A stretch of 64,000 bases of DNA, from contig NZ_UWPD01000001.1 of the NCBI RefSeq assembly GCF_900604965.1, forward strand, positions 1,070,642 to 1,134,641, given 5' to 3'. A program made the position numbers and the translations under genes. The DNA comes from Gordonibacter sp. Marseille-P4307 (GTDB taxonomy: Bacteria; Actinomycetota; Coriobacteriia; Coriobacteriales; Eggerthellaceae). The stretch's first letter is position 1. Each line of letters opens with the position of its first letter. Below the pieces are notes generated by a model that did not search any database, was not told the origin of the DNA, and saw nothing but the letters and a program-made list of their open reading frames with translations. Positions 18,857 to 22,450 of the stretch are shown here, piece after piece.

Positions 18857-19858
18857 ATGACGATAGCGGTAATCGGAGCAGGATCGTGGGGAACGGCGCT
18901 GGCCCAGGTCCTTGCGAAAAACGGAAGCCAGGTCTTTCTGTGGGCGCGCCGCGAGTCGGTCGCCCGATCCATCGATTCGTCTCACCGCAATCCCGACTAT
19001 CTGTCGTCGGTCGAGCTGTCGACTTCCATTCGCGCGTCGTCCGATCTCGAAGAGGTCGTTCGCGCGGCCGAGGCGGTTGTGCTGGTTACGCCTTCCAAGG
19101 TCATGCGCTCGATGGCCTGCGAGCTTTCCCGTCTGGTCGGATCGAGCGTTCCTGTGGTCGTCTGCTTCAAAGGCGTTGAAGAGAACACGGGCTGTTTGCC
19201 CCTCGAGGTGCTCGAACAGGAGATGGGCAACGCGGGCCGCTTCGCCGTCCTGTCGGGTCCGAACCACGCCGAGGAGGTGGCTGTTGGAATCCCGGCGGGC
19301 ACCGTTGTGGCTTCTGCCTGCGCCGAAACGGCCGATGCGTTTCAGCGGCTGTTCTCGGTCCCGCAGTTTCGCGTGTACACCAGCTCCGATGCGGTGGGCG
19401 TCGAGCTATGCGCCGCCGCCAAGAACGTGATCGCCATCGCCGTGGGCCTGTCTTACGGCATGGGGTACGGAGACAACACCGCTTCCATGCTCATTACGCG
19501 CGGTATGGCCGAGATGAGCCGCTTGGTCTCGAAGGCTGCGGGCGACCCCCTCACCTGCATGGGGCTTGCCGGGGCGGGAGACCTTATCGCCACCTGCATG
19601 TCGCGTCATTCGCGCAACCGCCGTTTCGGCGAGGCGTTCGCGCGGGGTACGACGCTCGATCGGTTCCACGAAGAGACCCATATGGTGGTCGAGGGCGCAC
19701 TGGCCTGTAAGAACCTTTCGGTGCTCGAGCAGCGCTACGGTATCGAGCTGCCCATTACCGATGTCGTGCGCGGTTTGATATGGGAAGGTCTTACCATCGA
19801 CGAGGCGCGCGACGCGCTGAACGCGCGCTCTCTCAAACCCGAGTTCTACGGAATCTAG
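18857..19858 (+). CDS. gpsA: Glycerol-3-phosphate dehydrogenase [NAD(P)+]
   Basis: Reduces dihydroxyacetone phosphate to glycerol 3-phosphate for phospholipid synthesis. The 333-residue product has the dinucleotide motif GAGSWGTALAQVLA at its start, VLSGPNHAEEVAVGIP, the active-site CAAAKNVIAIAVGLSYGMGYGDN with the catalytic Lys, and a C-terminal GLAGAGDLIATCMSRHSRNRRFG. The ATG at 18857 follows AAGAGGAG. It ends the der-plsY-gpsA run; the next gene is on the other strand. Confidence 0.97.
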   Translation: MTIAVIGAGSWGTALAQVLAKNGSQVFLWARRESVARSIDSSHRNPDYLSSVELSTSIRASSDLEEVVRAAEAVVLVTPSKVMRSMACELSRLVGSSVPVVVCFKGVEENTGCLPLEVLEQEMGNAGRFAVLSGPNHAEEVAVGIPAGTVVASACAETADAFQRLFSVPQFRVYTSSDAVGVELCAAAKNVIAIAVGLSYGMGYGDNTASMLITRGMAEMSRLVSKAAGDPLTCMGLAGAGDLIATCMSRHSRNRRFGEAFARGTTLDRFHEETHMVVEGALACKNLSVLEQRYGIELPITDVVRGLIWEGLTIDEARDALNARSLKPEFYGI

Positions 19859-19891
19859 GTTCTTGCGCGCGGGTATCCGCACCGATCCCTT

Positions 19892-20407
19892 TTATAGGCG
19901 GAGGTTTTCGCATCGGATTCGATCTGCAGACGGAGCCCGTTGGGCCGTCTTCTGCTCGAAGGCAAGAAGTCCTCGTCTCACCTGGGTTGATCTATCGTGG
20001 CCGAACGGCTCGCGGTTCTTGCCGACCACGCGGTGCGTGGGTACGATCAGCGGGAGGGGGCAGCTTTTCACGGCGGTTCCCACCGACCGATGCGATCCCG
20101 GTTTTCCGATAAGGCGGGCCAGCTGTTCGCAGGTGCGCTCCTCGCCGTAGGGGATCGAGAGGATTTCGGTCCAAACCGTGCGCTGAAACGCGCTGCCCCT
20201 TAGCGAGAGGCGCACGTCGAAAGAGCGCCTTTTTCCCGCGAAGTACTCTTGGATCTCGGTTGCGGCCCGGTTGGTGAGGATCGAGGGAGCGTTTCTGCCG
20301 AGAAGCGGCACCGCTCCGAACGCAAGCGCGGTCAGCCCCTTGTCGTCGGCGGCGATGGTCAGCGGGCCGTGAGGCATGGGGTAGGTGCACCAGTTCGACC
20401 GTTCCAT
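19892..20407 (-). CDS. Alkyltransferase-like protein (MGMT fold) lacking the catalytic cysteine
   Basis: A 171-residue relative of O6-alkylguanine-DNA alkyltransferases. The N-terminal domain and the helix-turn-helix are recognisable (FQRTVWTEILSIPYGE, CEQLARLIGKPGSHRSVGTAV). The hallmark PCHRV is PTHRV here: Thr124 replaces the methyl-accepting Cys. The nucleotide-flipping Tyr is replaced by Cys93, and the usual Asn of the NP motif by Cys116; the Arg finger (Arg107) is kept. The ATG is preceded on its strand by GGAAGGAGGG. It cannot act by the normal suicide transfer. It could be a DNA-lesion-binding ATL protein (which have Trp or other residues instead of Cys), or be decaying, although the frame is intact. 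Confidence 0.85.
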   Translation of the reverse strand: MERSNWCTYPMPHGPLTIAADDKGLTALAFGAVPLLGRNAPSILTNRAATEIQEYFAGKRRSFDVRLSLRGSAFQRTVWTEILSIPYGEERTCEQLARLIGKPGSHRSVGTAVKSCPLPLIVPTHRVVGKNREPFGHDRSTQVRRGLLAFEQKTAQRAPSADRIRCENLRL

Positions 20408-20537: not shown

Positions 20538-21236
20538 ATGTTTCAGCCTCTGCGGGTCGCCCCGTCGATTCTATCGGCGGATTTCATGAACCTATCTGCC
20601 GATATCGAGCTTGTCGAGCGCGCTGGCGCGGGGTTCGTCCACGTCGATGTGATGGATGGCCACTTCGTCCCGAACCTGACGATGGGCGTTCCGGTGGTCA
20701 AACAGCTCAAGCGCTGCGCCCGCATCCCCCTCGACGTGCACCTCATGGTGTCCAACCCGCTCGAACAGCTTCCGTGGTTTATCGAGGCGGGAAGCGATAT
20801 CCTCACCGTTCACGCCGAAGCGCTCGATGAAGGCGAGCTGGTGGAAGCGGTCGACCTCATTCGGTCGGCGGGTGCGCGGGCGTGCGTGTCGCTGAAGCCG
20901 AACACGCCCGCTTCGGCGCTTGCACCCGTTATCGATCGGCTGGACATGGCGCTTGTCATGAGCGTCGAACCCGGCTTTTCGGGGCAGAGCTACATCGAGG
21001 GTAGCGAAAACAAGGTCGCTCGTATCGTCGAGCAAGCGCGAGGTGCGGGCAACGAAGGCCTGCTTATCGAAGTGGACGGCGGTATATCCGTATCGACGGT
21101 CGAGCGCGTCGCGGCGGCGGGCGCCGATGTGATGGTGTGCGGGAACGCCTTCTTCAAGGCGGCCGATCCCGCAGGCGAGCTGAAGCGCATATGCGATTTG
21201 GGGAATGCCGCGCGCCGCGCGGCGCAGGAGGCTTAA
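20538..21236 (+). CDS. rpe: Ribulose-phosphate 3-epimerase
   Basis: Interconverts ribulose 5-phosphate and xylulose 5-phosphate in the pentose phosphate pathway. The 232-residue TIM-barrel protein has APSILSADFMNL, VHVDVMDGHFVPNLTMG, the DVHLMVSNP block and a C-terminal EVDGGISVSTVERVAAAGADV with the phosphate-binding loop. The ATG at 20538 follows GGGAAAGG. A TAGAAT at 20496-20501 may be its -10 box. The downstream cysteine desulfurase follows after five bases. Confidence 0.96.
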   Translation: MFQPLRVAPSILSADFMNLSADIELVERAGAGFVHVDVMDGHFVPNLTMGVPVVKQLKRCARIPLDVHLMVSNPLEQLPWFIEAGSDILTVHAEALDEGELVEAVDLIRSAGARACVSLKPNTPASALAPVIDRLDMALVMSVEPGFSGQSYIEGSENKVARIVEQARGAGNEGLLIEVDGGISVSTVERVAAAGADVMVCGNAFFKAADPAGELKRICDLGNAARRAAQEA

Positions 21237-21241
21237 AAGAC

Positions 21242-22450
21242 ATGGCTGTTACCGTTTCAGAGAACTACGTGTACCTCGACTGGGCCGCAACCACTCCGCT
21301 CTGCGAGGAGTCCGTTCTTGCCATGCAGCCCTACCTGGTTCCCGGAAAGGCGAACGTCGCCCTCAACGCCAACGCCAACTCCCTGCATGCGCCCGGTCGC
21401 GCGGCTTTCGAGGCGCTCGAGCGCGCCCGCCGCTCGTTTGCTTGCGACATCAACGCCGCCCGACCGAACGAGATCGTCTTCACGGGCGGCGCAACCGAGG
21501 CCGACAACACCGCGATCATCGGATTGGCCCAGGCTGTTACGGCCGAGCGGAACCGCAGTCGGCAAGGCTCCTTCACGCCCCATATCGTGATCTCGTCTAT
21601 CGAGCACGAGGCGGTGCTGTCTCCCGCGCATCGTTTGAAATCGCTGGGTTTCCGCGTCACGGAGATAGATCCGGATCGTTCGGGATTCATCCGCCCTGAA
21701 AAACTTGCCGCAGCCATGGGAGAGGATACGGTTCTCGTGTCCGTTCAGGCGGCGAACAGCGAGGTGGGAGCGCTTCAGCCTGTTGCCGAGCTGGCTCGCA
21801 TCGCCCATGATCGCGGGGCTCTGTTCCACACCGATGCCGTGCAGGCGCTCGGAAAGGTTCGGTTCGACGTTCAGGAGCTGGGTATCGACGCCGCATCGTT
21901 TGCGGCGCACAAGATCTGCGGCCCCAAGGGGGTCGGCGCGCTGTACGTGCGCGCGCGCATCCCCTACCAGGATTATCTGCTGGGCGGCGGTCAAGAGGCG
22001 GGTCGGCGCAGCGGTACGCAGAATGTGATGGGTATCGCGGGGTTCGCCGCCGCATCGCGCACGGCTATCGAATCGCTTGCAGAAGAGAGCGCGCGGCAGC
22101 GCTCGCTGCGCGATCTCCTCTACGCTCGGCTTTCCTCCATTCCCGCCGTGTCGCCCACGGTTGCGGTTGAGCCGGGAAGCGAGGATTACCTTCCCAATGT
22201 CGTTCACGTGCTGGTCGAGGGATACGAGAGCGAGACGCTTGTCCTGCGCCTCGATATGAAGGGGTTCGGGGTATCGGGCGGCTCGGCCTGCTCGTCTCAC
22301 TCCCTCGAACCCAGCCATGTGCTGAAATCCATGGGGATCGACTCCGATGCGGCCTACGGGGCCCTGCGCATTTCGTTTGGGCGCTTCACGACGGAGGCCG
22401 ACATCGAAGGTTTCATCGTGGCACTCAGGGAGTGTCTGGACTGGCAATGA
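21242..22450 (+). CDS. Cysteine desulfurase (NifS/IscS family)
   Basis: Removes sulfur from cysteine using pyridoxal phosphate, for iron-sulfur clusters or tRNA thiolation. The 402-residue product has Lys224 (AAHKICGPKG) for the cofactor, ANSEVGALQP, HTDAVQALGKV and the catalytic Cys350 in SGGSACSSHS. An in-frame ATG exists at 21137 inside rpe, but the ATG at 21242 has AGGAGG at 21224-21229 and gives the normal start (VYLDWAATTPL). No IscU or SufU lies beside it. It might feed MnmA at 52233-53345. The stop overlaps the next gene by ATGA. Confidence 0.93.
   Translation: MAVTVSENYVYLDWAATTPLCEESVLAMQPYLVPGKANVALNANANSLHAPGRAAFEALERARRSFACDINAARPNEIVFTGGATEADNTAIIGLAQAVTAERNRSRQGSFTPHIVISSIEHEAVLSPAHRLKSLGFRVTEIDPDRSGFIRPEKLAAAMGEDTVLVSVQAANSEVGALQPVAELARIAHDRGALFHTDAVQALGKVRFDVQELGIDAASFAAHKICGPKGVGALYVRARIPYQDYLLGGGQEAGRRSGTQNVMGIAGFAAASRTAIESLAEESARQRSLRDLLYARLSSIPAVSPTVAVEPGSEDYLPNVVHVLVEGYESETLVLRLDMKGFGVSGGSACSSHSLEPSHVLKSMGIDSDAAYGALRISFGRFTTEADIEGFIVALRECLDWQ

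Follow-up and report, generated by a model that had tools for sequence, protein, structure and literature searches.

A two-domain alkyltransferase homologue without the acceptor cysteine at the gpsA-rpe locus of Eggerthellaceae

Described alkyltransferases and the Gordonibacter protein

Alkyltransferases of the AGT type bind the minor groove of DNA through an HTH, without sequence specificity. An arginine finger intercalates, a tyrosine aids base flipping, and a Glu-His-Cys network takes the alkyl group (PMC10779285). The alkyltransferase-like proteins (ATLs) have no N-terminal domain, keep all of the DNA-binding and base-flipping features including the tyrosine, and pass the lesion to nucleotide excision repair (NER) (PMC10779285).

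In the window, the whole 64,000-nucleotide stretch of Gordonibacter sp. Marseille-P4307 DNA that was analysed, we identified a Cys-less two-domain AGT homologue of 171 amino acids carrying the motif PTHRV (19892..20407, minus strand). The ATG start of this ORF at 20407 is preceded by GGAAGGAGGG, a good ribosome-binding site. The protein scores well above the curated Pfam cut-offs for both PF01035 (77.5 bits against 27) and the N-terminal domain PF02870 (39.6 bits against 21). Its AF2 model has a mean pLDDT of 93.6, and the best fold match is OGT of M. tuberculosis (Z 21.7, rmsd 2.2, 160 residues, 36% identity), in a superposition that spans residues 3-165. S. pombe Atl1, in contrast, aligns only with the C-terminal domain, residues 70-154 (Z 11.6, rmsd 2.7, 85 residues). 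The Pfam matches, the model and the comparison with PDB structures all show the AGT fold with both domains, as the preliminary description had proposed for the overall fold. NCBIfam TIGR00589 (methylated-DNA-cysteine S-methyltransferase, Ogt-type) is also assigned above its cut-off despite the absent Cys, and automatic annotation of this kind makes the capacity of these bacteria for alkylation repair look greater than it is.

For comparison with human MGMT, the human numbering in the C-terminal domain is taken to be the numbering of the window protein plus 21. The methyl-accepting Cys of PCHRV, presumably human Cys145, is absent and replaced by Thr124, encoded by ACG (20036..20038, minus strand, as are the codons that follow). 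The base-flipping Tyr, presumably human Tyr114, is Cys93 (20129..20131), and the Asn hinge, presumably Asn137, is Cys116 (20060..20062). The Arg finger, presumably Arg128, is kept as Arg107 (20087..20089), as it is in 106 of the 110 orthologues first aligned, but the Tyr (or Phe) that active enzymes pair with it for base flipping is absent. The capping loop, GYxxG in fully canonical copies of the family, is gone and reads GHDRS at residues 136-140 (19988..20002), with His137 at what we take to be Tyr158. His125, Arg126 and Glu151 (presumably Glu172) are retained. The assignments at residues 93, 107, 116 and 124 bear out the preliminary description in full, and those of the loop and of His125, Arg126 and Glu151 extend it.

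In having both domains at full length, the Arg finger, P-x-H-R and Glu151, the protein resembles canonical enzymes such as M. tuberculosis OGT (PDB 4bhb/4wx9) and human MGMT. However, it lacks their acceptor Cys, flipping Tyr and capping loop, and has Cys at the Asn hinge. It shares with the ATLs (S. pombe Atl1, E. coli YbaZ and T. thermophilus TTHA1564) a replaced acceptor Cys together with a kept HTH and Arg finger, but the replacement is Thr, whereas in ATLs it is mostly Trp. The N-terminal domain is kept and the Tyr and capping loop are lost, a combination that differs from known ATLs (PMC10779285), as had been noted at the outset. The label of an ATL-like protein, given at the same time, fits poorly for the same reasons. 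No relevant account of proteins of this kind, whether from Eggerthella or described as pseudoenzymes, was found in the open-access literature.

Orthologues at the gpsA-rpe locus

Among 138 genomes of the same family that were searched, 135 gave a match, and 121 orthologues were extracted; the first alignment comprised 110, and the first comparison of non-Cys proteins 68 copies. In the window the gene lies between gpsA (18857..19858, plus strand) and the divergent rpe (20538..21236, plus strand), which is followed by a gene for an IscS/NifS-type cysteine desulfurase (21245..22450, plus strand; the listed ORF begins at an upstream GTG at 21137). These neighbours are conserved. In nearly all Eggerthellaceae genomes with a contig long enough to tell, the AGT gene adjoins rpe-iscS and is flanked at its opposite end by gpsA wherever the locus extends that far or has no insertion. 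The arrangement is common to Cys and non-Cys copies, which indicates one vertically inherited gene and not scattered paralogues. Synteny likewise excludes that a paralogue was taken for the orthologue.

Three Gordonibacter genomes carry the AGT gene approximately 4 to 6 kb away from rpe. Genera without the gene have no remnant of it beside rpe, and gpsA directly adjoins rpe in several of them. In a congener (L004:1498-1501) the end of the AGT gene overlaps the end of gpsA, compared with the window, where the encoded protein is 13 residues longer and the gene ends short of gpsA (19858-19892). Upstream of the gene, LexA-type boxes (GAACN4GTTC) do not exceed their frequency in shuffled sequence.

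Residue 124 is Cys in 45 of the 121 orthologues and another residue in the remaining 76. The replacements are T, D, A, S, V, I, L and G, with E in one copy. The motif reads PDHRV in Paraeggerthella hongkongensis, Rubneribacter badeniensis and Ellagibacter isourolithinifaciens, and PLHRL in Senegalimassilia anaerobia, and the named Gordonibacter carriers have D, S or C at this position. The congener mentioned above (genome G024, copy L004) is 92% identical to the window protein and has the same residues. This identity, and the absence of Cys from most orthologues, exclude a sequencing error or a chance local substitution.

Orthologues in Slackia and Enteroscipio have the gene, locus and architecture of the window copy, and differ from it in that Tyr93, a loop of the GYxxG type and the Cys are retained, the last within PCHRV or PCHRI; from these features they are probably active enzymes. 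Relatives with PCHRV at the same locus, which had been thought a possible sign of error, do exist, but they represent the ancestral state (see below). Of the 110 orthologues first aligned, 38 keep both Cys and Tyr, 66 have lost both, four keep only Cys and two only Tyr. The last condition is seen in the intermediates L025 and L094. The reverse is seen in two copies of one genus (L084 and L093, genus g23), in which Cys is kept while the Tyr site has T or A and the loop reads GAGRA; these may be intermediates too, in which case Tyr and loop could go before Cys. At this one orthologous locus, culturable gut bacteria offer a natural gradation from active enzymes to pseudoenzymes, intermediates included, which makes the role of the AGT fold without alkyl transfer testable.

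Two strongly diverged proteins (L137, PDYRL, and L146, PEHRL; genus g33) occupy the same locus, are the deepest members and have lost more of the motif. In L137 the motif His is also gone, and the ORF is still intact.

These distributions bear on whether the protein is an ATL-type lesion flag, which would bind O6-alkylguanine without repairing it and recruit UvrA/UvrC, with other residues flipping the base. Known ATLs operate in this way (PMC10779285), and the absent Cys, the kept Arg finger and HTH and the presence of uvrA in the window genome are consistent with it. We nevertheless regard such a role as unlikely. The residues that flip and hold the base are lost, both the 136-140 loop and Tyr93, the latter in all but two of the 68 non-Cys copies first compared, whereas the ATLs of the literature keep the Tyr and are without the N-terminal domain (PMC10779285). 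Moreover, Trp is found at residue 124 in none of the 121 orthologues.

Constraint and ancestry

A pairwise codon model for the window gene and its congener gave a dN/dS of 0.043 at a dS of 0.91, and omega=1 was rejected (2dlnL 115). Together with the intact ORF and ribosome-binding site, this agrees with the earlier view that the gene is not simply decaying. In other unsaturated non-Cys pairs dN/dS is 0.04-0.16, compared with 0.025-0.11 in Cys pairs (saturated pairs were ignored), and omega=1 was rejected in all unsaturated non-Cys pairs except one near-identical pair (L029/L030), which is uninformative. The pairwise values would also be compatible with a function unrelated to DNA.

Relative to neighbour proteins, the non-Cys copies evolve at a rate of 1.67 and the Cys copies at 1.07, approximately 1.6 times faster in the former, and constraint is thus partly relaxed. 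The relaxation is specific to one region. The genus-weighted site entropy of non-Cys copies exceeds that of canonical copies by 1.67 bits in the alkylguanine pocket, a contrast that is partly by construction because the pocket set includes the sites that define the groups. The low figures elsewhere, which are not affected in this way, are 0.13 bits for the N-terminal domain, 0.16 for the P-x-H-R flank and 0.28 for the recognition helix. Net charge is the same in non-Cys copies. As judged from the alignments, constraint is lost only in the alkylguanine pocket (gate Tyr, Cys and capping loop) and still acts on the fold, the N-terminal domain, the HTH with the Arg finger and the buried His-Arg-Glu frame. 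Such a pattern would be expected if DNA binding and fold matter and the handling of alkylguanine no longer does.

The faster evolution of non-Cys copies, the many different residues at position 124 and the lack of the gene in some genera could also point to a relaxed leftover, a gene on its way out whose loss is tolerated after redundancy arose and whose fold is kept through inertia. This is improbable given the low dN/dS values and the uneven distribution of the relaxation. In addition, ORFs are intact in all 76 non-Cys copies, Pro123, His125, Arg126 and Glu151 are invariant among the 110 orthologues first aligned, and the Arg finger is nearly so.

Every homologue retrieved from elsewhere in the class, beyond the family, has the Cys. 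The motif is PCHRV, accompanied by the Tyr and a canonical loop, both in these proteins and in the family's second two-domain AGT (OGT-2); the Cys is therefore ancestral. A single clade of non-Cys copies was rejected both on the gene tree (AU p=0.0005), for which the alignment is short and support within the tree modest, and on a tree of the neighbours rpe, iscS and gpsA (AU p about 1e-42), which includes gappy rows. These tests reject a single loss of Cys. If Cys was never regained, the gene tree requires 10 losses and the neighbour tree at least 16, although transfer or gene conversion could mean fewer losses than counted. In one case (L078, genus g6) the gene itself falls among Cys copies, while its neighbours lie near D-type genera.

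Second alkyltransferases and the putative role

Where the locus carries a fully canonical copy (37 genomes), OGT-2 is absent from 36 genomes and coexists with that copy in one; where it carries a degenerate copy (84 genomes), 63 have OGT-2. Presence was called from tblastn E-values with a cut chosen after the places had been seen, so that borderline genomes may have been assigned wrongly, and copies could be missed in genomes that are incomplete. On independent pairs the association is 5 to 0 (p=0.0625). The window genome is among the 21 with a degenerate copy and no OGT-2. A second, complete alkyltransferase, as considered in the preliminary description, is thus found in most genomes with a degenerate copy but not in this one, where, apart from the window protein, PF01035 matches only a PCHRV protein of a single domain (L001; G000:C2:603180-603551) and no Ada domain was found. 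Redundancy with a second AGT, or with the small single-domain protein, probably permitted the first losses.

The L001 gene adjoins a D-aminoacyl-tRNA deacylase-like ORF. Its product shares the AGT DNA-binding domain with the window protein, but is without the N-terminal domain, is of ATL-like size and keeps both Cys and Tyr. This ATL-like architecture with a Cys, whose best PDB sequence match is Atl1, occurs in most genomes of the family.

The genomes without OGT-2 also bear on whether the alkyl group could be accepted by another residue, Cys116 or Cys93, both of which the window protein has. In known AGT structures the Asn-hinge site, here Cys116, presumably adjoins the old Cys. Among non-Cys genomes, Cys116 is found in 11 of the 20 that lack OGT-2 compared with 4 of the 56 that have it (Fisher 2.3e-5), and all four species of the genus retain it. 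However, few independent lineages contribute to this association, and a sign test on independent pairs is not significant. Further, 29 of the 76 non-Cys copies have no Cys at all in the C-terminal domain, and the lesion pocket has been dismantled. Attractive as it is, the idea of a nucleophile relocated to Cys116 has weak support, and we regard a migrated acceptor as very improbable.

The groove binder and the N-terminal domain are kept while flipper, acceptor and loop are lost, and the protein is most economically explained as a DNA binder without catalysis. We consider it reasonably probable, from comparison of the sequences, that this AGT, vertically inherited at the gpsA-rpe locus, changed from a suicide repair enzyme into such a protein. 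The sequences show repeated loss of the ancestral Cys and of the rest of the alkylguanine pocket, in a gene that stays intact under purifying selection. The HTH and Arg finger would still bind the minor groove, perhaps with the cooperativity of AGTs, and the protein would neither accept an alkyl group nor hold a flipped O6-alkylguanine. It may instead occupy or mark DNA, or contact partners, for example another alkyltransferase or NER. On DNA, as we infer from the retained features, it might serve another alkyltransferase as a scaffold, protect unusual DNA or mark lesions in another way. A broader proposal, which we consider slightly less likely than not, is that these proteins form a family-wide class of two-domain pseudo-alkyltransferases with many parallel origins from one locus, which would have abandoned the O6-alkylguanine pocket and would work as DNA-binding partners or lesion markers in a way not known from AGTs or ATLs.

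In some genomes, OGT-2 genes occur as tandem pairs side by side (G066:C1:1192499-1193572, G068:C1:1539322-1540392, G018:C2:74805-75883 and G019:C1:44443-45518).
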